DNA from: Atrina japonica | Lineage: Eukaryota > Mollusca > Bivalvia > Pterioida > Pinnidae | Length of the DNA stretch: 64,000 nucleotides | Reading direction: 5' to 3' | NCBI GenBank assembly: GCA_030159075.1 | Contig: BROG01000030.1 | Span: 186,001-250,000, forward strand | Part shown: piece after piece, positions 17,216 through 42,740 of the stretch | Layout of the letters: the number at the start of each line of letters is the position of its first letter | Position numbering within the stretch: the first letter of the stretch is position 1 | Translations under genes and position numbers: made by a program | The notes under the pieces: model-generated | The model's database searches: none | Told to the model about the DNA's origin: nothing | What the model saw: the letters and a program-made list of their open reading frames with translations, nothing else

Positions 17216-18180
17216 CGTGGTGACAAAGCTGCGATCTTAGAGCGTAGCTTGGTCGCCGCAGGTCGTACGCAGTCGACGGTTGACCGAGGGTTGGTCACGC
17301 CTTGGTCTTCCGTGTTTGAACGTGGTCGAGGAATGGTCTCTCCGACGTAGCTCGTTTTTGTCAAAAAACTGAGTCTCGACCTAAAGTCGCATAGAGAGCG
17401 TCGAAAGAACGAACAAGGTCGAGAAAAGGACGAATTGGTCGAGGCTAGAACGGTGATGAGCGATGATCAGCCTTCTTCAGCGAGAACTGATTGTGCGCAT
17501 GGCTGTGCTGCTGGGTGTACGGAGATAGGTCCTGTAGGTAAATTCATCTCCCATCTCCCAGCCTCAGTTCCGTCATGAGGGGGAGTACTGACCATAATGT
17601 TCCCTCTTTGGTTTTCACGCAGCCAGGGTGCAACCCAATATTTCTTCTTGGTATACTTCTTTTTCCTCATCTTCAGCAAGGTTAGCATATCCAGAGAGTC
17701 TTGCTGAAGTTGCAGGGCACGGTGTTATAATAACATAGCTTGATGCACGGCGATTGGGTCCATGTTGTTATACCTTCGGAGGCTTGTCAAAAACTGGTCG
17801 GCCACCGATCACAGTGGGTCGCACGCAAATCCGGGCGACCGTGACAAAATTGTGCGTAGCTCAGGCGAGAAACTGTCTAGCAAAGATCGAGAATTGAGCG
17901 TACAGAGCGAGGCTAGAACGTTTATATCGCTGGCTAAATCGTATTGAACGAGGGTACGTTGCAACTCGTACGTAGCCAGACCGGTCAAGATTGAGCTTGA
18001 TCGGTCGAGGTCGCATACTTGTGAGGATAGATCGCCGAGATATCGACGATATGTCGCAGACTGATCGAACAGAACGAGCCTTGGTCGTGTTTAGGTCGCA
18101 TCAGATCGAGTGGATAGACGCAAATAATGCGTATGTAGAGCGTCTACGTACAGAGCGTATAGGACGCAGGTAGAACATGC
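17216..18180. other. CpG-rich GGTCG-repeat block, copy A
   Basis: An abrupt change to CpG-rich sequence with many GGTCG, GGTCGCA and CGTACG words, some repeated on both sides of the central fragment at 17467-17763 (for example GAGGCTAGAACG at about 17440 and 17908, and GTCAAAAAACTG/GTCAAAAACTGG). This looks like the subterminal repeats of a defective DNA transposon. The equivalent in copy B is 27811-28775. No intact gene. Confidence 0.5.
17467..17763 (-). pseudogene. Harbinger/ALP1-like N-terminal exon fragment, copy A
   Basis: The minus strand from ATG at 17763 reads MDPIAVHQAM, then a stop, then a Gln/Leu-rich stretch and LLKMRKKKYTKKKYWVAPWL. The basic run followed by YWV-x-PW is the usual opening of PIF/Harbinger nuclease-like proteins (HARBI1/ALP1 family). 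The frame then continues about 45 residues without recognisable nuclease motifs and ends at 17467. The fragment is duplicated at 28063-28360 and sits inside the GGTCG-rich block, so it is probably the remnant of a captured or internally deleted element. The family call is tentative. Confidence 0.4.
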
Positions 18181-20995: not shown

Positions 20996-21022
20996 GGATG
21001 CCCAGAGACTGAAACATCTTTT

Positions 21023-26413: not shown

Positions 26414-26785
26414 CGGTTTGTTGGCATGTCGTTCTGCAAAGTAGACCGTGCAACAAGTTAACATGTTTATAGATATGTTATCACCATGTTGTTGCTGCTG
26501 CTGCTGTTGTTGTTGTTGTTATAGTGGTGTTGTTGTTTTATATAATCAACAATACCAAACTTCCTTAGTTGAGCTTGAAATACGCTGGACTATATCGATG
26601 TCTGTGTATCTGTTTAGTCAATTTGGTCGAAATACACACAGAAAGACAAGAAATATATGTAATACAACCTGCCTTGCAAATTACATGTAATAACAATGGA
26701 AATCAAACTGTTACTGATTGTTTGTTTGTAAACGTTAAAAATACCAAATCCGCCCTTATCACACCGATTTTTATCGAGAAACGAA

Positions 26786-27810
26786 ATTTATTACAAATTG
26801 CGTCGGTTTTGTCACTGTTGAAAAATGCAAATCGACGCAATTTGTAATGAAATTTTAAAATACTTTGATAAAGGTTTTATTCTTTTTAAATCATCTAATA
26901 AGGTCATAAATATGTCAAAGTTAGTTGTAGATTGTTTTGATAATAAATTCGAAGGTTTTGGAGATTTATTACAAATTGCGTCGGCTTTTGTCATTGTTGA
27001 AAAAAAAAAAAGCAAATCAACGCAATCTTTAACAAATCTTAGAAATCCCTTAATAAGGGCTTGGTTCTTTTTAATCATCCAATAAGGACATAATGTATGT
27101 CAAAATATTTAGATATGTTAGTTGTAGGTTGTGTTGATCATAAAATTGAACGTTTGAAGATTTATTACAAATTGTGTTGGAGTTCCATTTTGCGAAAGAT
27201 CGAATCAACGCAATTTGTAATAAAATTCTGAAACTTCGATTTTATCGTCAGCACAACCCACAACTTACAGATCTAGATATTTAGACATATATTACGACCT
27301 TATTGGATGATTAAAAAACACTCGGACCCTTATCAAGTGATTTAAAAAAAATTAGTACAAATTGCGTCGATTTGCATTTTGCAAAAGATCACATCAACGC
27401 AATTTGTAATAAAATTCTGAAACTTCGATTTTATCGTCAGCACAACCCACAACTTACAGATCTAGATATTTAGACATATATTACGACCTTATTGGATGAT
27501 TAAAAAACACTCGGACCCTTATCAAGTGATTTAAAAAAAAATTAGTACAAATTGCGTCGATTTGCATTTTGCAAAAGATCGCATCAACGCAATTTGTAAT
27601 AAAATTCCAAAAGTAATATTCAAGGTATAAAATTAATTTCACGTTATCTTCTGAAGTTATAAAATATTAGGAAATTTTAGATCCACCCTTGTCACGTAAA
27701 CTTTTATAAAGAAAAAATGTAATTTTAAAGATTTATTACAAATTGCGTCGGTTCTGTCTTTGATGAAGAAAGCACATTTTTTATTACAAATTGCGTCGTT
27801 ATTTCAAATT
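26786..27810. repeat. array of ATTACAAATTGCGTCG hairpins, copy B
   Basis: Same arms as copy A. One spacer-plus-hairpin unit (AAACTTCGATTTTATCGTCAGC...AACGCAATTTGTAATAAAATT) occurs twice in a row at about 27220-27410 and 27410-27600. The last hairpin has lost its right arm, with the sequence jumping from AGAAAGCACAT to the final ATTACAAATTGCGTCGTT. Confidence 0.85.
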
Positions 27811-28062
27811 GGGTGGTGACAGAGCTGCGATCTTAGAGCGTAGCTTGGTCGCCGCAGGTCGTACGCAGTCGACGGTTGACCGAGGGTTGGTCACGCCTTG
27901 GTCTTCCGTGTTTGAACGTGGTCGAGGAATGGTCTCTCCGACGTAGCTCGTTTTTGTCAAAAAACTGAGTCTCGACCTAAAGTCGCATAGAGAGCGTCGA
28001 AAGAACGAACAAGGTCGAGAAAAGGACGAATTGGTCGAGGCTAGAACGGGGATGAGCGATGA

Positions 28063-28360
28063 TCAGCCTTCTTCAGCGAGAACTGATTGTGCGCATGGCT
28101 GTGCTGCTGGGTGTACGGAGATAGGTCCTGTAGGTAAATTCATCTCCCATCTCCCAGCCTCAGTTCCGTCATGAGGGGGAGTACTGACCATAATGTTCCC
28201 TCTTTGGTTTTCACGCAGCCAGGGTGCAACCCAATATTTTTTCTTGGTATACTTCTTTTTCCTCATCTTCAGCAAGGTTAGCATATCCACAGAGTCTTGC
28301 TGAAGTTGCAGGGCACGGTGTTATAATAACATAGCTTGATGCACGGCGATTGGGTCCATG
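28063..28360 (-). pseudogene. Harbinger/ALP1-like N-terminal exon fragment, copy B
   Basis: A nearly identical copy of the fragment at 17467-17763, with the same in-frame stop soon after the MDPIAVHQAM start and the same KKKYWVAPWL motif. It was duplicated with the unit, so the break predates the duplication. Confidence 0.4.
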
Positions 28361-29461
28361 TTGTTATACTTTCGGAGGCTTGTCAAAAACTGGTCGGCCA
28401 CCGATCACAGTGGGTCGCACGCAAATCCGGGCGACCGTGACAAAATTGTGCGTAGCTCTGGCGAGAAACTGTCTAGCAAAGATCGAGAATTGAGCGTACA
28501 GAGCGAGGCTAGAACGTTTATATCACAGGCTAAATCGTATTGAACGAGGGTACGTTGCAACTCGTACGTAGCCAGACCGGCCAAGATTGAGCTTGATCGG
28601 TCGAGGTCGCATACTTGTGAGGATAGATCACCGAGATATCGACGATATGTCGCAGACTGATCGAACAGAACGAGCCTTGGTCGTGTTTAGGTCGCATCAG
28701 ATCGAGTGGATAGACGCAAATAATGCGTATGTAGAGCGTCTACGTACAGAGCGTATAGGACGCAGGTAGAACATGCACATCGAAGGTCGAACGACATTAC
28801 ATCTGTGTTTTAAAATTTGTATGGGGGTTTTATGAAGTTTATGTATCCAGTACATATATGGTAAATGAAAAACGAAAATAAATTCGTTCATAATTCATTA
28901 TTATCCCCTACCATGAATGTTGATTAATTATTGCTGCCGGTTGCAGATGTCTGATATTCATTGATGCTACACTAATAGATCTCGCCATATTACAATGAAA
29001 ATCAGTAACGTTTTTCATTAAAGCTTTCAGAATATCGGTGTATTTACATGACATGCTGTTACAGTGCGGTATCTCAACGTTTCCAATACGGATCGTTCGT
29101 TGATCGATAGCGTATGTTTATCCAAATATCGTCTGCTCTTCAAGCCGATTTGTATCCCTAATGATAATTATCTTTACATGTATTATCATTCAGGGAATTC
29201 TGTCACCTATTGACATCATTATTGCACACAAGATATTTACACACAAGTATTATTTCATTAAAGTTCCATGACCGCTCAATTTCGCTAACAAAAAATATCG
29301 AAAAAATATTCTCACATTATACATTTTTATGACATAGTAATCAAATCTAGCGCACACATGCAGTGGAATTGGCCAGGAAATGATAAAACAACAATGATGC
29401 AGACATCCCTTAATGGCGATCGCCAGCTGCAGTGAACCATTCGCGGCTGTTATTACTTTTA

Positions 29462-29467
29462 ATTATT
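29462..29467. repeat. target-site duplication, left (partner 42735-42740)
   Basis: ATTATT occurs on both sides of the element and only once at the empty site in copy A. Confidence 0.93.
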
Positions 29468-30060
29468 AGTAGTAATAGGCAGCTCCATGGCGGGCATTTG
29501 AATTTTCGCCGCTAGGGGGCGCCACCAGTGGCGCTGTTTGATGACGTCATCAGAATGCTGGCTTCTGATTGGTCAATTCAAATGCCCGCAATGGAGCCGC
29601 CTGTGACGTCATAAGCGGAAGTGCGTCATACCGGAAGTGAGGTCATACCGGAAGTGAGGTCATGTTGTCATGGCAATAAGGAGAAAGAGCCAATCGTTGA
29701 GTTTGGAGGCGTGTCTATGACCGGAAGTGGAAGGTTGTGGAGGCGGCCATCTTGGTTAAGGAGCCAATGAGAGCCTTCGTTACAAGAGGTCGGGGTCACG
29801 AGAGTTCGCGAGAGTTCGCGAGAAGTCAACGGGAAGAGAGAGAAGTTGGGTTTTTCAAGTTTTGAGCTGAGAGTGAATCTATTTTTAGAACCGAAACTTT
29901 GGGTTTTTCCAGGTTTGTGAAACCAGTAGTTGGTGGCGCCACCGTCGGTGAAACTAGTAGTTGGTGGCGCCACCGTCGGTAAGAGTGCGCATGTGCGAGA
30001 AGCGGTAGGCCGAGCTCGACTCAAGCTTGTACTAAGACTTGTACTAAGGCTTGTAGAGTG
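29468..30060 (+). repeat. left terminal inverted repeat of the Polinton-like element
   Basis: Matches the reverse complement of 42011-42734 with small gaps. It contains a palindromic end, TGACGTCA at 29542-29549 and 29604-29611, several ACCGGAAGTGAGGTCAT words, CCAAT/ATTGG words, two copies of GTAGTTGGTGGCGCCACCGT, and a Thr-Lys-free GC-rich composition unlike the flanks. Confidence 0.9.
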
Positions 30061-30061
30061 A

Positions 30062-30250
30062 CGAGTATGTACAAAGGGAGATCACTCTGTAAAGACTTTA
30101 TAGGTGAAACAAAGGGAGATTACTCTGTATAGACTGTAGAGATGGGGCAAAGGGAGATCACTCTGTATAGACTGTATAGATGAAACAAAGGGAGATTACT
30201 CTGTATAGACTATAGGTGTGGAACAAAAGGGGAGATGACTCTTTATGGGC
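30062..30250 (+). repeat. ~38-bp tandem repeat inside the element
   Basis: Five copies of AAAGGGAGAT(C/T)ACTCTGTA(A/T)AGACT plus a variable tail (about 30075, 30113, 30151, 30187 and 30226). It begins at the inner edge of the left inverted repeat. Confidence 0.85.
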
Positions 30251-30404
30251 TGTATGCACTAAACCAGAGGGGTGGGTGGGTAGCGAAACAGGAAGGTTAG
30301 GAAGGGTAGCCATCTTTGGTATGGAATCATGGGATATCTAGTTTTTCAGGGACTGACTAATCTCACGGCAGGAGTGAGAACCATAGAACATGAAAGTGTG
30401 TAAC

Positions 30405-30600
30405 GTACTCAAAGTTTGTCAAAATGATCAAGTGTGTGTGTGTGTGTGTTGTTCTCAAAGTTTGTCAAAGTGATCAAATGTGTACCGTTCTCATGTTTCA
30501 AAGTTTGTCAAAGTGATCAAGTGTTTGTGTCGTTCTCAAAGTTTGTCAAAGTGATCAAGTGTGTACCGTTCTCATGTTTCAAAGTTTGCAACGTGTGCAA
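30405..30600 (+). repeat. TCAAAGTTTGTCAAAGTGATCAAGTGTG repeat
   Basis: The word CAAAGTTTGTCAAA.TGATCAA.TGT occurs four times with alternating spacers (GTACCGTTCTCATGTTT or a TG run with GTTCT). The open frame crossing it is a by-product of the repeat. Confidence 0.8.
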
Positions 30601-30789
30601 CGTTCTAAGTTATGAAGTCTCAAAGTGACACAAGTGACAGACACAAGAAGCACAATTGACACAAGTGACACAAGTGACAAAGTTGTATGAAGTTGTTCAC
30701 TTACATCGTTTCAACAAGTATCAAAGTTCAGATAGTGAAAATAGTATCTGCATTATTTTATATTATTTCTTGTACTACTGTATATAAAA

Positions 30790-30905
30790 TAAAAAATTAA
30801 ACACTCACCCAGAGAGAGTTTTTTCTGACGATGTTGACTCTTCGAGCTTCGGCTGCCAAATGAGCTCTCAGTAGTCTAACTGAACTTATTCTCAAGTTTT
30901 TAATG
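30790..30905 (-). repeat. internal ~110-bp conserved motif, left copy (inverted)
   Basis: The minus strand reads GTTCAGTTAGAC..CTGAGAGCTCATTTG...CCGAAGCTCGAAGAGT.AACATCGTCAGAAAA and ends GGGTGAGTGTTT.AATTTTTTATT. The same motif occurs twice in the opposite orientation at 41537-41662 and 41719-41841, so it flanks the gene set as a second inverted repeat. Each copy ends with a splice-donor-like GGTGAGT. Confidence 0.8.
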
Positions 30906-31045
30906 TTACTATTTTTAGAATTGCCTCGTTTTGAATTTCTGTCTGATAAAATTGAATCGATCAAGTACAAGAAATAAATTACTTACTATAGGCTAGACTT
31001 ACCGCTACAGTATAACACATACAAAAACTGCATAGTTTCAGTTAA

Positions 31046-31085
31046 GGTTTCTTTTCGTGTAAGTTAGGTGGCCCTGAAAAGGGCC
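31046..31085 (-). terminator. histone-type mRNA 3' stem-loop 1 with downstream element
   Basis: The minus strand reads AAAC-GGCCCTTTTCAGGGCC-ACCTAAC (loop TTTC, 6-bp stem) at 31070-31085, then CACGAAAAGAAACC at 31046-31059. This is the form of the SLBP-binding stem-loop plus the purine-rich U7-binding element of replication-dependent histone genes. It begins 24 nt after the stop of the minus-strand gene at 31110-31325. Confidence 0.9.
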
Positions 31086-31109
31086 GTTTGTTTTGGGTTG
31101 TTAAAACCC

Positions 31110-31325
31110 TTATAGGCAGCAGCAACAGCAGTCCCGGCAGCACACCATCTTTTTTCTTTCTGTAGCTGCTGCACGGGCCGCAGCAGCTTGGCAAAACCTT
31201 GCCATCCCGGCTTTCTGGCGTTCAAAGAACTCCCACTCTTCGGCTGCCGTCTTTAGCTTTTCCAAAATATACCATGGCTTAATAGCCCAAAACAGCTCGC
31301 TATCAATTGTCTGCTCTGTACTCAT
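31110..31325 (-). CDS. small element protein 1 (71 aa, Cys-rich tail)
   Basis: The start is ATG at 31325 (MSTEQTIDSELFW), not the longer frame upstream, because a TATA-like CATATAAAAAG lies at 31395-31405, about 70 nt upstream of it. The protein is mostly helical by appearance: KPWYILEKLKTAAEEWEFFERQ, an Ala-rich segment, then a basic ERKK and a cysteine cluster, CCRDCCCCCL, at the end. The cluster could be an acylation or metal site, but nothing is proven. I do not recognise the family. It is divergently paired with the gene at 31559 (233-bp gap) and followed by a histone-type stem-loop. The clean stop-to-stem-loop spacing supports a real gene. Confidence 0.65.
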   Translation of the reverse strand: MSTEQTIDSELFWAIKPWYILEKLKTAAEEWEFFERQKAGMARFCQAAAARAAATERKKMVCCRDCCCCCL

Positions 31326-31558
31326 GTTTTCAAAGTAAACAGCTATAACCATAACTCTTCTGGAATGAAGTGCGGTGAAATGAGACGCGCACGGCTTTTT
31401 ATATGAGCAGTATAGTGCACGCGACGTACTCCGTCTCGTCAACTTTGACCTCTTTGATGATTGGTCTATGTATCGTTGGCAACGTGATTCCACCAATGAA
31501 AACGTCAAGAGTGATAGACGCCTAGGAGAAATCAGTCTAAGAGTGATAAAAATAAAAA
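31326..31558. promoter_or_regulatory. divergent promoter between small genes 1 and 2
   Basis: The gap holds a TATA-like box for the minus gene (31395-31405), CCAAT at 31493-31497 and its inverse ATTGG at 31460-31464. Paired CCAAT boxes in a short divergent gap are typical of histone gene pairs. No clear TATA box is visible for the plus gene, apart from AT-rich sequence just before its ATG. Confidence 0.55.
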
Positions 31559-31900
31559 ATGTCAAACATGGCGTATACTATGGAGTACACTATGGAACAA
31601 GAAATCGAACCTGTTCTAATCGAGCCTGTATATGATACTAGGCAGATTATTCGTGATACTAAAGATAAGTTACGAAAGATTGATCTGAACTTTCATCAGG
31701 GAAAAGAAGATGTTCGCCTGAGACGAATTGTACTTCTCAATTCTGTTTTTACGGGTTTGGTAGAGAAGAGAGAAAACGTAAGCAGATGGATGAGAAGTGT
31801 TTGCCGTTTAAAAAGAGATTCTGTACATGAATCATGGCAGATATGCCAAAAACAACGGTCCTTTTCAGGACCACTTATATCTTACGAGAAGAAACCTTAA
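31559..31900 (+). CDS. small element protein 2 (up to 113 aa)
   Basis: Starts MSNMAYTMEYTMEQEIEPV. The body has charged helices (DTRQIIRDTKDKLRKIDLNF, LRRIVLLNSVFTGLVEKR) and a Trp/Arg-rich stretch. I do not recognise the family. The frame as written runs through the histone-type stem-loop (31857-31872) and its downstream element to a stop at 31898, so an mRNA cut after the stem-loop would lack a stop. A one-base difference at the A-run near 31809-31814 would put TGA at 31828-31830, 27 nt before the stem-loop, as in its neighbours. The true C-terminus is therefore uncertain and the last ~23 residues are doubtful. Confidence 0.6.
   Translation: MSNMAYTMEYTMEQEIEPVLIEPVYDTRQIIRDTKDKLRKIDLNFHQGKEDVRLRRIVLLNSVFTGLVEKRENVSRWMRSVCRLKRDSVHESWQICQKQRSFSGPLISYEKKP
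31857..31896 (+). terminator. histone-type mRNA 3' stem-loop 2, with compensatory change
   Basis: GGTCCTTTTCAGGACC at 31857-31872 followed by ACTT, then ACGAGAAGAAACC at about 31884-31896. Compared with the other copies, a stem C:G pair has become T:A on both arms. This covariation shows that the RNA stem itself is under selection. Confidence 0.87.
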
Positions 31901-32044
31901 ACTGAATGTGCAGTGTATATAATAAAAATGAGTTATAGGGTTTATGAGACAAGAATATGAGTTATAGGGTTTATGACACAATAAAATGAGTAATAGGGTT
32001 TATGTTTTATAGTAGTAGATGTAGCATATCTCAATACAGTTTAG

Positions 32045-32083
32045 ATTACTTTTCTAATGAGTTGGGTGGCCCTGAAAAGGGCC
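32045..32083 (-). terminator. histone-type mRNA 3' stem-loop 3
   Basis: The minus strand reads AAC-GGCCCTTTTCAGGGCC-ACCCAAC at 32068-32083. The downstream purine element is weaker here (TTAGAAAAGTAATC). It serves a minus-strand transcript arriving from about 32358. Confidence 0.83.
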
Positions 32084-32217
32084 GTTAGTTAGGTTACTAA
32101 TATTGACAGTAACATCTTCTCTTTTTCAGAGGTAAACGTTGTTCTGCTTCCAGTAGATCATCTGTCTTTCTCTTGATCGTCATGATGATCGGTATCTGTA
32201 GGTGACGAAAACTAGCT

Positions 32218-32358
32218 CTAATTTGTTTCCTTGTAGAAACCCTGATTCAGTTTCGTCAGTAGACTCTGATAGTAACGATTACACTTCATTGTACGCCACT
32301 TGGTCTTCTGTTGTAACAGAATAATTCTGTAAATAGCTTCTGTATAGATACTCTCCAT
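32218..32358 (-). CDS. small element protein 3 (46 aa as written; probably damaged)
   Basis: ATG at 32358 follows a C/A-rich leader and gives MESIYTEAIYRIILLQQKTK followed by basic, Tyr-rich sequence, ending at TAG 32218-32220. About 135 nt then separate it from stem-loop 3, much more than the 14-37 nt in its neighbours. Continuing frames run on to a TAA about 5 nt before the stem-loop, so the gene may have an indel. No family recognised. It is supported by its place: divergent partner of the gene at 32476 and upstream of a stem-loop on the right strand. Confidence 0.4.
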   Translation of the reverse strand: MESIYTEAIYRIILLQQKTKWRTMKCNRYYQSLLTKLNQGFYKETN

Positions 32359-32475
32359 TTTGGTTTTTGTTTTTTCACTAAGCGATGTTCAACAAGAAGG
32401 AAAAGAAACGCTCACGCGACATGTGATGTCACATCCTGCCGAGTATGTCTCAGAGTCTATAGTCATTGTTTGATC
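32359..32475. promoter_or_regulatory. divergent promoter between small genes 3 and 4
   Basis: A 117-bp gap between two ATGs on opposite strands. It contains a CRE-like TGATGTCACA near 32424 and a short AT box (TCTATAGTC) near 32457. It is more compact than the other divergent pair, and no canonical TATA is visible. Confidence 0.4.
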
Positions 32476-32670
32476 ATGGCTGACTGTGTAACCATGTGGG
32501 ACGAAATACAAGAAAAAGAAGAATGGCTGATATGTGCCGATACAGTGGGAAGAAAGGTGGACTGGTTATCGAATATCGACGAATGGATTGAGCTCGTGAA
32601 GCTTGAAAAAAGAAAAAGAGAAAGACGACAGAGAAAACGGACAAAATGCTTTTTATGCCATGGCATATAA
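32476..32670 (+). CDS. small element protein 4 (64 aa, basic C-terminus)
   Basis: ATG at 32476 (MADCVTMWDEIQEKEEWL). An acidic, Trp-containing N-terminal half is followed by KLEKRKRERRQRKRTK and a final CFLCHGI. The basic run could be a nuclear localisation signal or bind nucleic acid. The stop is 16 nt before histone-type stem-loop 4. A minus-strand frame of similar length covers the same bases, but it ignores the stem-loop orientation and is taken as a shadow. No family recognised. Confidence 0.65.
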   Translation: MADCVTMWDEIQEKEEWLICADTVGRKVDWLSNIDEWIELVKLEKRKRERRQRKRTKCFLCHGI

Positions 32671-32686
32671 AGCCTAAAACACAAAC

Positions 32687-32727
32687 GGCCCTTTTCAGGG
32701 CCACCTAACTTTTTACGAAAAGAAACC
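32687..32727 (+). terminator. histone-type mRNA 3' stem-loop 4 with downstream element
   Basis: AAAC-GGCCCTTTTCAGGGCC-ACCTAAC at 32687-32702, then TTACGAAAAGAAACC ending at 32727. Form and spacing are the same as in copy 1 on the other strand. Confidence 0.9.
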
Positions 32728-33089
32728 TATGACTGATTAGAGCAGTTTTTAAAACATAGATCCTTTGTATACCCTTATTCTGTATCTCTTTCTCTGTATC
32801 TCACTCTAAGTGTTACACTTTTACTCTTGATCTCCTTCTACTCATAGTTTTGTAGTTTTGTTTTTTACATTAGATCGCTCCTTTATGTCTACCTTGTAGA
32901 TACTAGAGCAGGACTCTAAGTGTACTCTTAGTGTACACCTTATACCCAGTAGGTTTAAACTCTAAGTGTACTCTAAACGTGTACACCTTTTAGTCATAAA
33001 TACACAAACACCAGATCAAATTTAAATAAGTTTAATGCCCCGCTAAAAACCTTTTTAGATAGTCAACAGAGGATTAGGACCGTCCCTCT

Positions 33090-33350
33090 GTGACTATGTA
33101 CAATACATAAGCATGAACTATGAGAACATTAACTATCAGAACATTAATTATGAGAACACTGATTCACTCTCTGTGACTATGTACAATACATAAGCATGAA
33201 CTATGAGAACATTAACTATGATAACATTAACTTTGAGAACATTAACTTTGAGAACACTGATTCACTTTCTGTGACTATGTACAATACATAAGAATGAACT
33301 ATGAGAACATTAACTTTGAAAACATTAACTTCATGTTAAAACGTTCATCA
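33090..33350 (+). repeat. CTGTGACTATGTACAATACATAAG repeat, ~90-bp unit
   Basis: Three copies (about 33090, 33172 and 33271) of CTCT/CTTTCTGTGACTATGTACAATACATAAG, each followed by two to four copies of TGAGAACATTAACT. Another motif, CTCTAAGTGTACTCT, repeats at 32915-32990. The surrounding 32730-33500 shows no gene. Confidence 0.8.
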
Positions 33351-33506
33351 CAAAACTTTGAGTCACTTTGTCTCACTACTACGGTTGATCTTGCCCATAC
33401 AGCACGGAGCAAAAGAACGTCAGCTTTTGTCCTAGATCGGTCGGTTCGGATTCCTTGACGCTGTGACACTAAACGTATTTACATGATAAACAGTACTAAA
33501 TGACAA

Positions 33507-34082
33507 TCACTGCTGTTCGGGTTCCACTTTCCCTTTCTTGGTGGCTTTGACTCCCTTCTTGAGCATCAAGTTGAGTTTACGTTTGACCCCTGTTGAAGTC
33601 TGTTCGGGACATTCATAAGCCCAATGACCTGACTGATGACATTTATAACACTGGTCCGATTGACGAGATCGATTTTCTACTTTGTTCTCAGGTTCTACTC
33701 TTACTGATGTTGTTGTTGTTGTTGTTGCCGTCCCGTTATTCTTAAGACATCTAGGAGACCAATGTCCAATTTCACCACAAATGAAACAAGGATGAGTCTG
33801 TGGCGTAGGCTTATATTCGTACCCCATATATGATGTTCTGACTCCTGGCTGTACGTTATCCTTCAATTCTTTCAGAGTAGTTGTAATAGTCGTGAGTTCT
33901 TCCCTCATTTTTTGTAATGTGGATAGCAAGGCATTACGTAACATTCCCTGGGTCGCATCATTTTCGTGTTTTTCTTCCAACTGGTCTAAAGTTTTGAGAA
34001 CTTCATCAAACTCCCCTTCTAGGTAAGGTGTAATATTAGGTGAATAATTTGGGTGCGTCTGAGACAAGCCTGGATAACTCAT
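33507..34082 (-). CDS. two-zinc-knuckle (CCHC) protein, 191 aa
   Basis: The start is ATG at 34082 (MSYPGLSQTHPNYSP); the frame is open upstream but only from a non-ATG codon. A TATAAAG-type box lies about 45-50 nt upstream on the minus strand. The N-terminal half is helical (EVLKTLDQLEEKHEND, LSTLQKMREELTTITTTLKELKD). Two CX2CX4HX4C knuckles follow: CFICGEIGHWSPRC and CYKCHQSGHWAYEC, separated by a Thr-rich linker. The tail is strongly basic (KRKLNLMLKKGVKATKKGK). Such proteins bind single-stranded nucleic acid, as in retroviral Gag and CNBP. Zinc-knuckle genes are not a standard Polinton component as far as I recall. It lies 3' of the BIR gene, same strand, and has no histone-type stem-loop. 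Confidence 0.85.
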   Translation of the reverse strand: MSYPGLSQTHPNYSPNITPYLEGEFDEVLKTLDQLEEKHENDATQGMLRNALLSTLQKMREELTTITTTLKELKDNVQPGVRTSYMGYEYKPTPQTHPCFICGEIGHWSPRCLKNNGTATTTTTTSVRVEPENKVENRSRQSDQCYKCHQSGHWAYECPEQTSTGVKRKLNLMLKKGVKATKKGKVEPEQQ

Positions 34083-34232
34083 GTTGATGACTGATTCAAA
34101 TGATGTTTGGTCACTGCACTTCACTTTACTTTATAGCCGTTCTTCTTATTCTATATTTAGACTCGTTCCTGTCAGCCACTTGGATGTTCCCAGAAGGGAG
34201 GCTCCACACAGGGTTTTTTGTTTGTGTTATGT

Positions 34233-34649
34233 TTATATCAGCAATTGACTGAAAGCACAATCTTTAGACCAGCGTCGATGTTCTGTAAAAGCATTATCGC
34301 TCCATTCCCAATCTTTTAAAACAGATGCCACACAAGAAAAACACTGAACGTGGTCACTGTTCCCTAAATACACAAATCCTGCTCTGGCTAATTCTGTCTG
34401 TTTAGGTCCCGGTAGATATTTGGGCCAATGATCTTTAAACGTCAGGTACCTGGATTCATACGTACAAAAATTAGGCAAGGCTAAAGATATTCTTAATTCC
34501 TGATAAAACGATAACCCTCTGACGGTAGCAGGTCTTAGTTTAAAAGTGGTCACACCTTGTCTCCTTTCGGTAGGTGGAGTCCTTGTCACTTCTATCAGAT
34601 TAACTCTCGGTAACGCTATCCACTTCAACCCGACGAGCTCGTGGTACAC
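34233..34649 (-). CDS. BIR-domain (inhibitor-of-apoptosis-like) protein
   Basis: The frame ends in a clear BIR repeat: YLTFKDHWP, an ELARAGFVYLG stretch, CFSC, a DWEW stretch and an EH followed by RRWSKDC. The zinc ligands fit CX2CX17HX6C, one residue longer than the usual CX2CX16HX6C. It has one BIR and no RING domain, with about 55 residues before the BIR. BIR proteins bind caspases or IAP antagonists; viruses such as baculoviruses and malacoherpesviruses carry them, so a role in keeping the host cell alive is a reasonable inference. An ATG at 34649 starts this frame, but a promoter-proximal frame (34600-34815) overlaps it by 50 nt, so the natural N-terminus may be longer. Capture from a host IAP gene is likely. 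Confidence 0.85.
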   Translation of the reverse strand: MYHELVGLKWIALPRVNLIEVTRTPPTERRQGVTTFKLRPATVRGLSFYQELRISLALPNFCTYESRYLTFKDHWPKYLPGPKQTELARAGFVYLGNSDHVQCFSCVASVLKDWEWSDNAFTEHRRWSKDCAFSQLLI

Positions 34650-34815
34650 TATCTACTTCTACTCGATGAACTCGTGGTACACTATCCATCATGTCTCGGT
34701 TCATGGGAGCACTATCCGTGACGGTCTGACTAGCATCCATCGTCGATGAAAATAAAGTTTCCATACTTGATGTTCTTTCCATCGTGTCTGAGAGTGAATG
34801 GTCCCTGATGTGCAT
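34600..34815 (-). CDS. short frame overlapping the BIR gene 5' end
   Basis: Minus-strand frame with a duplicated VPR.RRVEVDSV motif, ending 50 nt inside the BIR frame. A strong TATAAAAAG at 34825-34833 lies only 10 nt before its first ATG (34815), so transcripts should start downstream and use the Met at 34764 (METLFSS) or a nearby one. It may be an upstream regulatory frame, or the true N-terminus of the BIR protein separated by a one-base indel. I cannot decide between these from sequence. Confidence 0.4.
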   Translation of the reverse strand: MHIRDHSLSDTMERTSSMETLFSSTMDASQTVTDSAPMNRDMMDSVPRVHRVEVDSVPRARRVEVDSVTES

Positions 34816-34871
34816 TCTCACTCCCTTTTTATAAGGTTCATAAAATCTATTTTTAGATCAGAACTAAAAAA

Positions 34872-35471
34872 TCATATTTTTCTACGTTTTTTGTCCTTAA
34901 ACACAAATTGTATCATCGGTACGTCTACATGATGACCAAAAGGATCCCATGCTACTGGTCGTTGTTCTTTATGCACATGATACATCATACCTGCACGATT
35001 GCCATTATTATCATTTAATTGTAAATGAAAAGTGTCACCGTACATGGGAGACTGACGACAATCGCTTAACCATTGTCGTAGAAACATTAAAATATCATGA
35101 GGTATTTCTTCCTGTTCTACTTTTCGTGGTCGTCCCCCTTTCCACTCCTTCCTCTGTCCCTTTTCTTCTTCTTCTCTTTGTTCTTTTGTTCTCTCTACGG
35201 ATACTTTGCGTGGACGTCCCCTCTTTCTTTTCATTCTCTGTTCTTTTCCTTCATCTCTCTGTCCTTCTGACTTTTTCTCTCCTTCTATCTTTTCCTGTCC
35301 TTCCATCGTTTCCCCTATTCTTTCTTTCTGTTCTTCTTCTTCTCTCTGTTTCCCTTCTTCTCTTTGTTTCTCTTCTTCTCTCTGTTTCTCTCCTTTCCAC
35401 CCCTTACGTCTTTTCATGTCTTCTTTTCTCGCGTCTTTAGTCATGTCATTTTCTCTTTTCGTCGGATTCAT
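34872..35471 (-). CDS. AT-hook DNA-binding protein, ~199 aa
   Basis: The start chosen is ATG at 35471 (MNPTKREND), which leaves the preceding gene free; an in-frame ATG at 35579 would overlap that gene. Residues about 10-120 are extremely Glu/Lys/Arg-rich (repeated KQREEE), followed by two AT-hooks, KRGRPRKV and KGGRPRKV, about 30 residues apart. A compact C-terminal domain follows (DILMFLRQWLSDCRQSP...DTFHLQLND) and a basic end (FKDKKRRKI). AT-hooks bind the minor groove of AT-rich DNA, suiting a genome-condensing or replication accessory protein. The C-terminal domain is unknown to me. The plus-strand frames opposite are shadows. Confidence 0.75.
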   Translation of the reverse strand: MNPTKRENDMTKDARKEDMKRRKGWKGEKQREEEKQREEGKQREEEEQKERIGETMEGQEKIEGEKKSEGQRDEGKEQRMKRKRGRPRKVSVERTKEQREEEEKGQRKEWKGGRPRKVEQEEIPHDILMFLRQWLSDCRQSPMYGDTFHLQLNDNNGNRAGMMYHVHKEQRPVAWDPFGHHVDVPMIQFVFKDKKRRKI

Positions 35472-35547
35472 ATTGATAAATAATACAAGATGTGAACACG
35501 ATGACTCTCGGTCATCAACTGACCCAAGTCCTGTGTTGCACTTCATT

Positions 35548-36571
35548 TTAAATGACACGACGAAAATGAAGTTTGGCAATCACTTTTCCTCCTAGAAAAT
35601 GAATTTTACGTCCCATGTCATCTCTCAATTGTATTTCAATGGTATCAAAATACTTTTTATTAAAACTCACATAATTGTAATGAAAAGGTTCCCAATGTTG
35701 ATGATTGAGCGATTGACCCGTTTGAAAAGGGACCACACGTAATAACGGTAACGATTGTGAACCTACAATTTGACTTTCGGCAATGTTACTGTAGACATAG
35801 ATACCACTCATACCAATATTTAAATCGGGTGGATACTTTGGCATGTGTGTGACATCGATCCATTTAGTCATCTCCTCATTCATGTCAATGGCTTCAAAGC
35901 CTAGCTTATAACCTAGTAGACTTGGAAAACGTATTAAAAAGGGAACGGAATAGATGGATCGGCCTTTAAACTCAATCATGAATCGATCTAAAGCTTCGTC
36001 ATACCTGAATTTAATAGTATTTTTATGAGAGAGATCTTCTATCCCATCAATGACATATTGAAAGGCTCTAGAAAACCCAACTTTCATCTCTTCTATTAAA
36101 GCAGCAGGAGATTTATAAAGCCCCGAACGAAATTTAAGTTTCCTACAAAAGCGATCCCCGACTTCGTATCAGTTTTAGAGATGACATGATCAAATTGGGG
36201 ATCATCTAACGAGACGTGTTTCTTAATCAATTCTACAGTAAAACGTTCATGTTGACGATATTTCATTTCCTTTTTCTTAGGATACGTAGAAGGGTCCTGG
36301 GGATTTTTAGGTGTCACGACGGATTCCAAAGGAACGTGAAGGGGAACCAGGACATCTATGTAATTCTCATCGGATCCTATCGATTCTATTAAGTTGGGAA
36401 AGATCAATTCACTCAACGCTACTTCCCACTCACTATCCATCATACTTAAAGCTTGAGGTAAATGAGTTTTTTGAATTCTGTTAAGGTATTATCGGGAAAG
36501 ACTTTTAAACTAGCATCGCTAGGTAAAGTCATGTAAAAACTACCATGATCTTTAGAATCGAGAGTCGCCAT
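35548..36571 (-). pseudogene. virion-type (possible minor capsid/penton-like) protein, three frames
   Basis: ATG at 36571 begins SFYMTLPSDASLKVFPDNT. The protein continues after a -1 shift at an A6 run (36467-36472) with MMDSEWEVALSELIFP, and after another -1 shift at 36129-36135 (AAATTTC) with EEMKVGFSRA...LPLLRVVPFQTG...FDTIEIQLRDDMGRKI...LHFRR. The W-E-V-A-L-x-E-x-x-F-P and PLLRVV...LHFR pattern is one I associate with a protein that accompanies PolB in metazoan Polinton-like elements; a beta-rich minor capsid role is my inference. No nonsense codons were seen, only two frame changes in the same direction, so the gene may be damaged, mis-assembled or frameshifted by design. A TATA-like box (TATAAAAC) lies near 36632-36640. 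Confidence 0.55.
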
Positions 36572-36694
36572 GATGCGTGTACTTGAGATCACACTGTATC
36601 AATGAACCCCTACCCGTCACTGTCTTCTGTTTTATATCATCAACACCAACACCAAAGTCAAGTTTCATACATTTTATTACTCAAAAAACTTTAT

Positions 36695-39600
36695 TCAATA
36701 ACCATAAGGTAAAGTACAAAAGTTTTCAATGCGATGTCTCTTATCATACACGACACGCACTTCTTTAGTCATCGCCTGTGTTTTGACTTTATGTTGTTTC
36801 GTTCGCATGATCTTATGAGGGTACGATACCAGTACTTTCTTTTGTTGACCACGTAACAACTGTTTCAATGTATCTACGTTGACTGTAGAAGTGGTACGAC
36901 TATCAAAAGTGATTCCTTTGACTTTACACACCGTTTTGTCCTGACGAGTCTTGTACGCATAATTTTTAGGACCTCCCGAGACAAAGGATAAGATAGAATC
37001 GCCATCTAATTCGTCTGTCCATCCTCCTAAACTGTGTATGATGGCAGGATTCCACTGCTGTGGATCGTGTTGATAAATGATACTGTCTGTATCAAAATAT
37101 AACACACGTTCTCCCAAACGTTCTAGGGTGGCATAGAGATGTAACCGTGCTAAAGACGTCGTAAAGGCTGCTAACACTACATTGCTAAAACCATTGGGTT
37201 CATCAAAGTCATCCTTCTGTTTTGAATTCACCAGCATCATGTCTAGCTCATCATGGCCTTCGTCATTTGGAATCAGTTCTAAATGTAATACCTCACGAGT
37301 ATCATCTTGAAGTAACTGTTGTAATGCTTCGTAACTCTCCACATACTGTGTCTGAGGTAAATTAGTCCGTTGAGCAAATTTACCCCACAAACAGTTCAGA
37401 AACAGTTTAGCAATGGTCCGTAAGATAGGATTCTTCTCTACATCTTCTTCTCGTATGATCAGTTGTTCTCTCGTTTTCAATCTCTTTGAGGTACTGACGA
37501 CGATCTTCTACTGTTTGACAGGAAGCAGGAAAACCACTAGCTTGTTGCTTAATCTGGAGAAACTGATCAATATAGCTACGAAATAAAGTATTGGACTGAT
37601 CAGGGAAATGCCATACTTCAAAGATACGATCGATCACATAACCTTTTTCTATAGCTTTATTCAATTCACACGTCGTCCATGTACCTAACAAACGTCGTTC
37701 TTGATTCGTATGAGAGCATCGATAACTCATACCCAACTCCTGTTCGATTCCTTGTTGAGCACAAGTACGGCATAAAGGAAAAAGTAGCTTTCCTCCTGCA
37801 AACCGATAAGGTAACACGGGATGAAACAGATGACGAGGAGGAATAACTCGACATTGTACCAGTCCAAAATATTGATCTAGACTTTTGAAATCATGTGTAA
37901 TCACGTCTGGGTGTCCAATGGGAAAAGTCCCATGTTTCAAGACAAACGGGTACAAAGAACATACATCCACGTAACGAATGTCTCCTTCTTCACATAGCAA
38001 ACGAGTAGCATTCGTTCGACCTCCAAATAAAGCATCTTTAGGAACTAACGGGTCGGGAAAATCTTCATACGTTTTATCAATGAAATGTTGAAACTCTGGA
38101 TCCGTCTTGTACCTTTGACGATAGTCATGTTCCCCACAGCGTTTCTACTTGATAGTGTTGACGCAAATACTGATCTCTCTCTAAGGTCTTTTGATACACT
38201 TCTTCATACGTCAAAGAAGGATGAAACGGGTGTTGCTCTTGCTTTAAGTTAGGAAAACACAAGGGACATCCGTGCCAAAAACAGCCATGAAACTCGTAAA
38301 TGGTGCGAGAGTCTTCATGATAACCATCCACGCGATAAGATCCTACTTGGACTTCCCCTCCCTGACGAGCATGTCTAATCGTTTGACCAGTTTCATGTTC
38401 TTTCCAACTCAACAGCGTAATGCTAGGGTGGAATACTGTCGTGGTGAAGGATATCCCCGCGGAGGTATGATACCAATCGTATCTTTTTGCATATGATTGC
38501 GACGATAGGCTATATTTCCCGTACTGGCAAACGTAATCGATTCAGCAAAGGGGTCCACATCGGTTAGTTTCAAACACATGCTTTGAAAATGCATAAAAGC
38601 TTGTCGCAAAATAGTCACGTCCAATTCACAGTATTCTTCTAATTCGCATTGCAAATGAAAAATCTCACCCTTTTGAATTTGGTCTTGATACCACGCTTCA
38701 AAATCACGACGAACATCAGGTTTCATACCTTCTGGGTTGTAATACATAGCTGGGGGATATATTCCTATGTAATCAGCATTAGCTTCTGTATTGAACAAAT
38801 GCGGAAAGTAGCCTTTCTTGAGTTCAGTCAATCCAAAAGCTTTAGGTAACGAAGCTAAAGGAAATGACAAGAAATTACACGAGTCTTTAAACCTGATGTT
38901 TCCAGCCGTCATAGACATAATCTTAGAACCGTTCATGATCACATCAGGTTTTTCACAGGCATGATGTACCAGATGATGTAAAATAAACTGTCCATCGTAC
39001 CCTTTAAAGTTATGAGCAACAGCTATAGCTCCATCATGTAAAAGTTTCTCCCTTTGATGTATGTCATCATACACGGTCGTTTGAAATAACCAAGTCAAAA
39101 AATCAGTGAGTGTCGTGGGACCTCGGAATATGATACGATGATCCTCCATGGTTTTACATTGCTCACACCAATCATCATCGGATGTACACTGGGGACATAC
39201 ACGATGAGCAATACATAGATTAGGTTTATGTTCTCCGGTATCCTGGGTACACTCAAAATCATAGAAAATGTAATAAGGGGGTGAAGATGATTCATCCTGA
39301 GAAGGGATCCGTTGTATAAAACAGCGATGATCTAGATCCACGATCTGTTTACAATGGTGACATTTTTTTCTTCTTTTCTTGACAGCAGTGTTGTGTGAAT
39401 TGTTTCTTACTCATCCATACTTGACAAGTGGGACATCGAGTCATTAGCTGACATGGAGTCTTGGCCGTATTACTACTATAAGGTTTCAAATGATTCTCGT
39501 AACACTGAGTCGATGTGAATGTCCCCCTGACAATGTGTACATTCTATTGGTTTTATCGTGTTGTCGGGAACACAGGGCCACGGTGCAAAACAACGAAAGC

Positions 39601-40471
39601 AGCATTGAGGGCATCGGTGATCTTCTATATGATTATAACCCACATCACAACGGTCACTCTCTTCAGGTCCACTCTCTTGCTGGGGATCACATCCAGCTTG
39701 TTGCATTAAGGCATGAGCTTCTCGTCGTTGAAGAGTAGGCATGAGCTTCTTCCTTTTTGCATCACCATAAATCAAAGTTTTCCAATAGCGTTGCCAGTTT
39801 TTGTACTTGTCTCCATCTCCATGTCCAGGTATCTGACAATGAAAACGACCAACTACAATAGCACGAGCTAAACAGGTCTTGTCTGTATTCTTGATCTGTA
39901 TCAAACTTCTCTTCTTGTTCAGCATGACTTTTTTATCAACACTGAGATGATATTTTCGTTTTCCACCCCCGCTACCTACAGGTTGTATGACATAGATTAC
40001 TGACAGGGTGGTAGACCCATCTTCGATTCTAAAATTTTCATTACTCTGTTGCACTTTCTCAATTTTCTCCATGAGTAGATCAGCATTCAGGTCTTTAGCA
40101 TCCGTAAATTCTACCCACACTTCACTTTTTAAAGATGGATGATGTATATTGACTCTCATCTTATCCCGATCTTCACACTGTAGTTTGTTCTTAATAGAAG
40201 TCAACATATGATCTATTACCTCTGATACCAAGTGTATGACATCTTTAGAAAAATGTTTAAATTTGACTTGGTACACATTCGAAGCCGTTTTAAACTTACG
40301 TGATTTACGCTCACTCAAAGTGTCTACTTCATAGTAATCACTATAATCGGTGAGTTGTCTGTTTGCATTAAACCCATCACCCCGTTGATCTCTCTGGTGA
40401 GCCTGTCTTTGACTTCTCGCCTGTTCTTGTCTTTCATTTAACAATAAATCAAAGTTTGGTAAATTAGCCAT
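36695..40471 (-). CDS. protein-primed-type family B DNA polymerase, interrupted by frame changes
   Basis: One long gene starting at ATG 40471, with TATAAATA at 40529-40536. Order: an N-terminal domain (KRSLIQIKNTDKTCLARAIVVG near 39870), zinc-binding pairs around 39360-39600, 3'-5' exonuclease motifs (YDFE 39252-39263; HNFKGYDGQF near 39010; YCELDV near 38620), a Vsr-like insert (VDGY...YEFHGCFWHGCP, 38260-38330), then polymerase motif A (DVCSLYP, 37947-37967), motif B (KLFLNCLWGKF near 37400) and motif C (DTDS, 37082-37093). It would replicate the element from protein-primed ends. At least five frame changes occur: a G5 run at 39523-39527, an A7 run at 39363-39369, near 38410, a G4 run at 38132-38135, and an A4 run at 37474-37477. 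No isolated nonsense codon was found. Confidence 0.88.
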
Positions 40472-40528
40472 TCCGTGTGTATGCTTCCGTTGTCAAATCT
40501 AAAATGAAGTACGGTAACTGTAGACATG

Positions 40529-40536
40529 TATTTATA
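40529..40536 (-). promoter_or_regulatory. TATA box of the polymerase gene
   Basis: TATAAATA on the minus strand, 58 nt before the ATG at 40471. Confidence 0.65.
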
Positions 40537-40689
40537 ATAGAAAAGAAAAGAACTGTATAGATACTTAAACGAAGTATCATCACATTTATATAGTCTTTTA
40601 TATTCTAGTCTTTTATGTTTTATAGTTCCATAAAACTAGAATGTATTGTATTTCGTTTTATTTTCATATAGAATTAGAAATATTAAAAA

Positions 40690-40935
40690 CTAGTGACAGT
40701 ATCTGTCTTAAAAACAGGTGGCCGTAGACGTAGATGTCTAGACAGACTACAACAACAGGTGGCCATATGTCAAAAACAGGTGGCCAGATGCCAAGTGTCA
40801 ACAACAGGTGTTCAGATGACAAGTGTCAAAAATGTCAAAAACAGGTGTTCAGATGCCAAGTGTCAAAAATGTCAAAAACAGGTGTTCAGATGCCAAGTGT
40901 CAAAAGTGTCAAAAACAGGTGGCCAGATGTTCAGA
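40690..40935 (+). repeat. AAAAACAGGTG(G/T)(C/T)CAGATG(C)CAAGTGTC repeat
   Basis: Six or seven copies of ACAGGTGGCCAGATG or ACAGGTGTTCAGATGCCAAGTGTCAAAAATGTC, in periods of about 22 and 46 bp. Three overlapping frames through it are by-products (a cysteine-rich KCQKCQKQV repeat in more than one frame). Confidence 0.85.
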
Positions 40936-40955
40936 CGGGAGAAAAAATCAATACG

Positions 40956-40978
40956 TGACGTCATTCACTCTATATAAG
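40956..40978 (+). promoter_or_regulatory. CRE and TATA box of small gene 5
   Basis: TGACGTCA at 40956-40963 and TATATAAG at 40971-40978, followed by the ATG at 41015. The spacing is compact and typical of a strong core promoter. The same TGACGTCA word recurs in both terminal repeats. Confidence 0.75.
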
Positions 40979-41014
40979 CTAATACTACCTGAGTCTCGGT
41001 ATTAGTTCATCATC

Positions 41015-41320
41015 ATGGATAACTCATCCGACATGGAGATGCAACCTGAAGAGAGAAACATACGAATCATTCTGACACAGAGGACACGTATTGTAGTAAG
41101 GCCACGCAGCCCAATCAATTCTGGTAGGACCCCTGTGACACCGACTACACAACACCAGGAACCACCTAGACCTGTCCCTTCACTTCCAGTACCTGTACAA
41201 TACGTACTAGCTCAGGAAGCATTAGCCAATCTTCGACAACATAAGGCCGAGATAAATCGACTGATGATAGAAAAAGAAAGAGAAGTTCGGCGTTGGCGAC
41301 GTCTACTCGACAGATATTAG
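41015..41320 (+). CDS. small element protein 5 (101 aa)
   Basis: Begins MDNSSDMEMQPEERNIRI. The middle is Pro/Thr-rich (RPRSPINSGRTPVTPTTQHQ, PRPVPSLPVPVQ) and the end is a basic helix (LRQHKAEINRLMIEKEREVR then RWRRLLDRY). No family recognised; it may be a nucleic-acid or protein adaptor. The promoter (CRE plus TATA) and the histone-type stem-loop 36 nt past its stop make this the best-bounded small gene in the element. It lies alone at the right end, transcribed outward, opposite to the polymerase block. Confidence 0.72.
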   Translation: MDNSSDMEMQPEERNIRIILTQRTRIVVRPRSPINSGRTPVTPTTQHQEPPRPVPSLPVPVQYVLAQEALANLRQHKAEINRLMIEKEREVRRWRRLLDRY

Positions 41321-41356
41321 AGTCTCTCTCTTATTCAGCTTTTCGGAGCAATCAAC

Positions 41357-41396
41357 GGCCCTTTTAAGGGCCACCCAACTTATTCGGAAAGAAACC
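41357..41396 (+). terminator. histone-type mRNA 3' stem-loop 5 with downstream element
   Basis: CAAC-GGCCCTTTTAAGGGCC-ACCCAAC at 41357-41372, then CGGAAAGAAACC at 41385-41396. The loop is TTTA rather than TTTC; both loop forms occur in known metazoan histone messages. Confidence 0.88.
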
Positions 41397-41536
41397 TTCA
41401 CTAAAGGTATGCAGGGTTTGTGTTATTCTGTAGTGACTACACATTACTTAGTCCCGTATATTCAACATTAAATTTTATTTGTGTTTTTTGTGTTTTTGTT
41501 GTATTCACTTCATTAGATAAAAGTCTAAATATAGTA

Positions 41537-41841
41537 AGTCATGTGACTAGAGAGAAGTTCAGTTCAGCCTGTGAAAACTCATTTGAGATCCGAAGCTCGA
41601 GGTGTTAACATCATAAGAAAAAAACACTACTTTTAGCATAGGGTGAGTGTTTCATTTTTTATTAGATAGGGCTAGATTATTTTCCATGCACTAAAAATAG
41701 AATTATCTCCAAAAAAAAGTCACATGACTAGAGTATAGGTTCAGTTAGACCTCTGAGAGCTCATTTGCGATCCGAAGCTCGAAGAGTTAACATCGTCAGA
41801 AAACCACTACCAGCATAGGGTGAGTGTTTGAATTTTTATTA
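41537..41841 (+). repeat. internal ~110-bp conserved motif, two right copies
   Basis: Copies at 41537-41662 and 41719-41841 begin GTCA(C/T)(A/G)TGACTAGAG, contain CTCATTTG(A/C)GATCCGAAGCTCGA and GTTAACATC, and end CATAGGGTGAGTGTTT. They are inverted relative to 30790-30905. The intervening and following bases (to 42010) hold no gene. Confidence 0.8.
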
Positions 41842-42010
41842 CCATAGGTTTAGTGTTTATCGTATGAAACATGTACAAACAATATCTCAGAAAAAAAAAA
41901 TTAGGTAACTTCATTACTTATCACTTAATTATGCTATCAGGGAAATACCCTATCATCTAATCAATGTTCATTCACTCTAGACCTTAAAGGCCCATCACTA
42001 TACATTTACT

Positions 42011-42734
42011 CTACAAGTCTTAGTACAAGCTTGAGTCGAGCTTGGCCTACAGCTTCTCGCGCTTGCGCACTTGAAACAGGACTCTCGCAGACTAACTCAA
42101 AGTGACGAGCTCGGCCTACCGCTTCTCGCACATGCGCACTCTCACCGACGGTGGCGCCACCAACTACTAGTTTCACCGACGGTGGCGCCACCAACTACTG
42201 GTTTCACAAACCTGGAAAAACCCAAAGTTTCGGTTCTAAAAATAGATTCACTCTCATCTCAAAACTGGAAAAACCCAAAGTTTCGGTTCTAAAAATAGAT
42301 TCACTCTCAGCTCAAAACTGGAAAAACCCAATTTCTCTCTCTTACCGTCGACTTCTCGCGAACTCACGTGACCTCTCGTGACTTCTCGTGACCCCAACCT
42401 CTTGTAACGAAGGCTCTCATTGGCTCCTTAGCCAAGATGGCCGCCCCCACAACCTTCCACTTCCGCTCATAAACACGCCTCCAAGCTCAACGATTGGCTC
42501 TTTCTCCTTATTGCCATGACAACATGACCTCACTTCCGGTATGACGCACTTCCGGTATAACCTCACTTCCGGTATGACGCACTTCCGCTTATGACGTCAC
42601 AGGCGGCTCCATGGCGGGCATTTGAATTGACCAATCAGAACCAGCATTCTGATGACGTCATCAAACAGCGCCACTGGTGGCGCCCCCTAGCGGCGAAAAT
42701 TCAAATGCCCGCCATGGAGCTGCCTATTACTACT
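42011..42734 (-). repeat. right terminal inverted repeat of the Polinton-like element
   Basis: The reverse complement of the left repeat. It is about 130 bp longer because AAAACTGGAAAAACCCAAAGTTTCGG with its flanks, and a CTTCTCGC segment, occur twice. It has the same terminal palindrome, TGACGTCA words and CACTTCCGGTATGACG words (four copies at 42530-42590). Confidence 0.9.
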
Positions 42735-42740
42735 ATTATT

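Follow-up and report, generated by a model that had tools for sequence, protein, structure and literature searches.

Why should genes that do not encode histones end in the RNA signal that closes histone messages? The question is raised by a 13,267-bp mobile element at 29468-42734 of a 64,000-nucleotide (nt) stretch of the bivalve Atrina japonica (contig BROG01000030.1, positions 186,001 to 250,000 of the forward strand; this whole stretch is called the window, and coordinates refer to it). An initial annotation had noted five histone-type hairpins in the element, and had proposed that its messages are processed by SLBP and the U7 small nuclear ribonucleoprotein (snRNP). As far as is known, animals use 3′ ends of the histone type on histone genes alone. 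Our analysis supports the proposal at the level of sequence, its RNA-level part being a prediction.

Five gene ends with a histone-type stem-loop

A cmscan search of the whole window against Rfam, the covariance search by which the initial annotation had suggested its hairpins be judged, returned five matches at gathering score. All five are full-length matches to the Histone3 family (RF00032; gathering cut-off 34 bits), with E-values from 1.2e-8 to 3.4e-6, and they cover all five hairpins, on the strands and at the positions first reported. At the left of the element lie stem-loop A (31070-31085, minus strand; match 31044-31090, 39.9 bits), stem-loop B (31857-31872, plus strand; match 31852-31897, 34.4 bits), stem-loop C (32068-32083, minus strand; match 32043-32088, 37.9 bits) and stem-loop D (32687-32702, plus strand; match 32682-32728, 40.9 bits). 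Stem-loop E (41357-41372, plus strand; match 41352-41398, 38.7 bits) lies at the right.

These gene ends share one layout. The stop codon is followed by a gap of 13-36 nt ending in AAC, a 6-bp stem with a TTTC or TTTA loop, the trinucleotide ACC (ACT in B), a further 10-11 nt, and then a purine-rich element that is GAAAAGAAACC or close to it. Read from the sequence, this element is GAAAAGAAACC in both A (31046-31056, minus strand) and D (32717-32727, plus strand), GAGAAGAAACC in B (31886-31896, plus strand), GAAAAGTAATC in C (32044-32054, minus strand) and GGAAAGAAACC in E (41386-41396, plus strand). The flanks, AAC ahead of all five loops with ACC after four and ACT after one, agree with the initial description, as does the alternative TTTA loop, which belongs to E. 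The U7-type element had been reported after four of the five loops at a distance of 11-13 nt; a purine element is indeed there, but it follows all five, at 13-14 nt past the stem.

That each hairpin stands 3′ of a short frame can be seen directly for three of the genes. Gene A (31110-31325, minus strand; 71 amino acids with a Cys-rich C-terminus) stops 24 nt before its loop, gene D (32476-32670, plus strand; 64 amino acids) 16 nt, and gene E (41015-41320, plus strand; 101 amino acids) 36 nt, a putative TATA-like sequence, TATATAA, standing ahead of gene E at 40972-40978 (plus strand). For genes B and C the arrangement appears only in less decayed copies elsewhere in the genome. The window's gene B frame (31559-31900, plus strand) reads through the loop, and in loci L005, L007 and L021 its stop lies 26 nt ahead of it. 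Gene C, delimited by comparison of copies, is broken in the window (32097-32357, minus strand, the low end being approximate), where it has 46 codons; it encodes 119-122 amino acids in L005, L021, L039 and L046, and its stop falls 13 nt ahead of the loop in L005, L039 and L046. With these copies included, the loop is on the coding strand and 13-36 nt past the stop in all five families. Of the loop genes, the left part of the element holds A(-), B(+), C(-) and D(+), in that order and within 2.2 kb, and E(+) is found at its right; B and C point toward each other, their loops about 195 nt apart.

The initial annotation held that none of these genes is histone-like, and no family of the five has a Pfam histone match. 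More broadly, A-E and their relatives gave nothing above cut-off against Pfam, and a longer gene A frame (31110-31565) was likewise without a match. The proteins of genes A-D are small, and most forms end in Lys/Arg and Cys, with net charges of +1 to +18; relatives of gene C carry the tail RRLPxKKRRCYC. A fold model of one such relative, P0121, consists of two long helices and a loose basic Cys tail (predicted local distance difference test score, pLDDT, 79.6), and matched nothing in the PDB at E <= 0.001. By the Pfam results and the P0121 fold and PDB comparison, A-E are not histones in disguise. A gene C profile run against a protein collection found just three proteins, on short contigs, at 57-61% identity.

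Conservation among copies and in host histone genes

How well is this module kept elsewhere? A Histone3 search of the 832-Mb host assembly, in which 75 of 155,611 candidates were scored, yielded 72 above the cut-off. We inspected 69 of the 75 places (one in the window, 50 in L002-L049 and 18 in L052-L069; six were left out). Across the window and L002-L049, a pattern search found 90 loops, 81 of them with a coding match to one of genes A-E upstream; the others comprise eight without a label and one at a linker histone gene. The pattern loop was also present in 17 of the 18 loci L052-L069, each time together with a coding match to gene A, D or E.

Loci drawn by their loop are biased toward possessing one, so our count was limited to gene ends other than those by which a locus had been drawn. 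Fifty-nine ends qualified, none of them from gene E, and the loop is kept in 53 of the 59 at no more than three mismatches and in 42 at no more than one. By our calculation, chance would place any of the three loop forms, at three mismatches or fewer, in about 0.2% of 170-nt stretches; this expectation and the Histone3 E-values together rule out chance hairpins. We then compared 53 ends with the window copy, having dropped six of the 59: the gene A end of L009, cut by the locus end, and five with no loop within four mismatches (L040 A, L024 B, L002 C, L036 C and L030 D). Identity to the window copy is 96.0% in the loop, a figure raised by the anchor rule of at most four mismatches, and 97.1% in the purine element, which that rule does not raise; it is 84.1% in the coding sequence and 73.5% in the flank, taken as 100-220 nt from the start of the loop. 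No other part of the compared regions is conserved as well as the loop and the downstream element.

The module is also found in more distant relatives. Gene C compared with its counterpart in L019, and gene E with that in L047, show 45% protein identity and 58% and 33% identity at third codon positions, respectively, with loops identical at 16 of 16 positions. The divergent gene C (L019:2893-3046; 45% identity to the common form) has surroundings unlike the window element except at the 3′ end, a hint that it represents a further lineage.

The initial annotation had named the motif's absence from related elements as evidence that would count against it, and the motif was found in such elements, including at loci drawn by a different gene. 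Some E-like loop genes adjoin a Pox_A32-type ATPase gene (PF04665 above cut-off in L016 and L033). When regions were picked by the ATPase gene, all eight held a loop upstream of it: six exact, one with one mismatch and one with three. An E-like frame ends 16-40 nt before the loop in seven of these eight, the frame in L076 not being recognisably E-like. At about 3006-3070 in L034 and L038, an E-like gene of this ATPase class carries a loop module of the gene A type together with left-end flank, which suggests that 3′ modules pass from one gene or element to another.

Does the host use the same signal on its own genes? The host side of this comparison consists of two genes. A linker histone gene (PF00538, E 3e-21; L011), whose product has a likeness to sperm protamine-like proteins, reads AACAAA, GGCCCTTTTAAGGGCC, ACCC and CGAAAAGTAC, with the loop 28 nt past the stop. 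A histone-fold gene (PF00125), which we take to be of H2A.X type from its SQEY tail, has AAC, the same loop as the linker histone gene, ACCC and TTAGAAAAGTT, with the loop 24 nt past the stop. In both, a GAAAAG element follows the loop at a spacing close to that in the element's genes, and element gene C is host-like in having ACCC and TTAGAAAAGTAATC. Judged by these two histone genes, the signal on the element has the form that the host itself uses. No core histone array was found among the 12 histone-fold matches in the host genome.

Predicted processing of the messages and alternative explanations

In histone mRNAs, 3′ processing is carried out by SLBP, the U7 snRNP and CPSF73. From the sequence evidence above we predict, with good confidence, that this host machinery cuts the transcripts of A-E, giving mRNAs that lack poly(A) and are produced chiefly in S phase. 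Host RNA polymerase II would transcribe the genes, SLBP would bind the loop, and the U7 snRNP would pair with the GAAAAGAAACC-like purine element; CPSF73 would then cut just past the loop, leaving a message without a poly(A) tail. Such messages would build up during S phase, as well as in germ and embryonic cells rich in SLBP, and would be destroyed as S phase ends, the element's polymerase gene presumably using ordinary polyadenylation. Possible gains for the element are small proteins made at the time when its own DNA can be copied, gene ends that take up little room, and escape from control through the poly(A) tail.

Several observations weigh against this prediction. Poly(A)-type signals lie 3′ of three loops (AATAAA at 49 nt for B, ATTAAA at 95 nt for E and at 166 nt for A), making polyadenylation a possible second route for A, B and E; after the loops of C and D there is none within 1 kb. 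The compensatory stem change of B (GGTCC/GGACC), which had been offered as a sign of selection on RNA form, is present, but it occurs in no other of the genes, is common to the gene B copies and so counts as one event. L019 and L047 were both drawn by their loop, and the flank of the latter is 75% like that of gene E, suggesting exchange near the termini. The copies share descent, which makes conservation inside one genome weaker evidence than conservation between species. Scans of viral contigs for relatives returned only L001, a distant relative in its DNA polymerase (PolB, 29% identity), and it lacks a Histone3 match. Finally, a host H2A variant (L050) has no loop in the 1 kb fetched.

Might the modules be passengers, a host histone 3′ end captured once and spread to five genes by duplication or gene conversion, with no effect as the genes are polyadenylated downstream? 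The modules are alike among genes, the gene-A-type ends in L034 and L038 indicate that they move, and the signals after A, B and E would provide the polyadenylation. This account must contend with the loop and downstream element being conserved above all else compared, with the missing signals near C and D, and with a module kept across lineages whose proteins are 45% identical; we consider it unlikely.

We also think it improbable that the module is kept for its very short gene ends, which would stop transcription between packed convergent genes, S-phase coupling being a by-product. The crowding of four loop genes at the left, B and C converging, is what such a role would call for, yet gene E stands alone near the right terminus and has the module all the same, and so does the E-like gene beside the ATPase. 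Processing by SLBP and U7 would in any case couple the mRNA to the cell cycle, and this explanation thus shares the mechanism and differs in the reason for it.

A role for the hairpins at the DNA level, for example as palindromes that serve the element's replication, packaging or recombination and only look like histone ends, is easily imagined in a DNA element with inverted repeats but is very improbable for structures that always lie on the coding strand just past a stop, keep an asymmetric TTTC loop, AAC, ACC and a strand-specific downstream element, match Histone3 over its full length and recur on host histone genes.

If processing by SLBP and U7 is indeed what these ends serve, the route can be taken over by a mobile element that bears the signal on five unrelated genes, which would explain how a DNA element times its own genes to host DNA replication. 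RNA data obtained with poly(A) selection would miss genes of this kind. The element's 3′ ends would also be natural test substrates for the specificity of SLBP and U7.

The element, its partner class and known systems

What kind of element carries these genes? Long terminal inverted repeats (TIRs) beginning with AG and a 6-bp target site duplication (TSD) are hallmarks of Polinton/Maverick elements. Alignment of the two arms places the left TIR at 29468-30018 (plus strand), beginning AG, and the right TIR, which has extra repeat units, at 42106-42734 (minus strand); they are flanked by 6-bp copies of ATTATT at 29462-29467 and 42735-42740. The description as Polinton-like thus holds for the TIRs, the TSD and the polymerase, but the window element has no recognised integrase, packaging ATPase or capsid gene by domain and tblastn searches.

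The polymerase is a type-B DNA polymerase with relatives in animals, oyster among them. It occupies several overlapping, broken frames at 36695-39341 (minus strand; pieces 36695-37480, 37407-38000, 38125-38412 and 38409-39341, three of the four matching PF03175), with AATAAA at its 3′ end at 36695 and 36678. Upstream of it lies a 331-amino-acid protein (39476-40471). Also on the minus strand are two frames at 35548-36443 (35548-36087 and 36096-36443), an AT-hook protein (34872-35579; PF02178), a protein with a BIR (inhibitor of apoptosis) domain (34233-34649; PF00653, E 3.3e-20) and a CCHC zinc-knuckle protein (33507-34124; PF00098, E 7.2e-10). None of these genes, PolB included, has a stem-loop. 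A reading of the 35548-36087 product as a penton-type capsid protein was borne out by none of our searches; fold prediction for its family (pLDDT 37) gave no usable model.

Elsewhere in the window, a direct repeat of about 3 kb (15933-18876 and 26487-29468, about 10.6 kb apart, in blocks 98-100% identical) lies just left of the element. A 581-amino-acid carboxylesterase-family frame (12058-13803, minus strand; PF00135, E 2.5e-122) is likely a host gene. A broken LINE-like (long interspersed nuclear element) sequence at 20009-23503 (plus strand) has L1-type RNA-binding, endonuclease and reverse transcriptase domains, and tandem arrays, built of repeats of roughly 73 nt and 140-146 nt, occupy 61488-62664 and 63005-63813.

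The ATPase belongs to a second class of element (L016, L022, L025, L033, L034, L038 and L070). Loci in which an E-like loop gene adjoins the ATPase are 74-92% identical to the window element over its left terminal 1.6 kb, which reaches to the loop module of gene A, and beyond it their genes differ. Beside the ATPase stands a gene that we label capsid-like from a likeness to the double jelly-roll major capsid proteins of Polintons and from its steady position there; it had no Pfam match in L022 or L079 and no PDB match in L022. Of integrases, an rve domain at L047:1-1200 lies outside the end of the element in that locus, and an integrase-like C-terminus in L070 is presumed from a motif, Pfam giving no match.

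Do the two classes ever keep company? We measured distances among the scored 150 of 761 ATPase, 128 of 1747 PolB and 150 of 590 capsid-like candidates (the PolB places being 128 of 141 rows, with 13 second pieces of the same places left out, and the ATPase places 150 of 155 rows). A capsid-like match lies within 8 kb of 73 of the 150 ATPase places, the median distance being 5,653 bp where the two are no more than 10 kb apart, and this pairing demonstrates that the test can see neighbours. No ATPase place and no capsid-like place, of 150 each, lies within 8 kb of any of the 128 PolB places; at 20 kb, two of the ATPase and one of the capsid-like places have a PolB neighbour. Among the best 30 of each list, no PolB lies within 20 kb of an ATPase or capsid-like place. 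These lists are the scored parts of the candidates, and PolB partners outside them are therefore possible. None of the fetched loci holds genes of both classes, and tblastn searches using 120 relatives of PolB found no such gene in a decayed capsid-class copy covered nearly end to end (L034/L070).

The simplest reading of these sequences would be a genome split over two elements, one with PolB and genes A-E and the other with the ATPase and capsid-like genes. The capsid class may, alternatively, have a divergent polymerase. With slightly more doubt than belief, we entertain the fuller picture of a provirus family split over two integrated DNAs with common termini, both using the host's histone 3′-end machinery for chosen small genes, whose expression would then be tied to S phase and need no poly(A) tails. 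That polymerase and capsid genes seem to lie apart bears on the kinship of Polintons, adintoviruses and two-part viruses with Polinton-type polymerases.

Among the titles listed by our searches of the open literature, none reports histone-type 3′ ends on genes of Polintons, adintoviruses, DNA viruses or transposons, most subscription papers and preprints being outside those searches. Set beside known systems, the element's gene ends resemble those of animal replication-dependent histone genes (RF00032) in the stem-loop, the AAC and ACC flanks, the purine element 13-14 nt past the stem and the short gap from the stop, but here they belong to non-histone genes in a mobile element. With Polinton/Maverick elements and adintoviruses, the system has in common long TIRs, a 6-bp TSD and PolB, and a partner class with a Pox_A32-type ATPase and a capsid-like gene; it differs in its histone-type 3′ ends and in that the polymerase gene and the capsid-like gene are found on different elements whose termini are shared. 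The partner here carries a Pox_A32-type ATPase and a gene that looks like one for a double jelly-roll capsid, whereas bidnaviruses have a capsid of parvovirus derivation and single-stranded DNA. These insect viruses (Bidnaviridae) are reported to have a two-part genome with a Polinton-type PolB on one of two DNAs (PMC11071308, PMC4061559), the arrangement of the polymerase gene being the point of likeness. Adomaviruses and tailtomaviruses are reported to encode histone-like "Histoid" proteins (PMC11071296); there too an animal DNA virus is linked to histone biology, but in those viruses it is the protein that resembles a histone, and here only the end of the mRNA.

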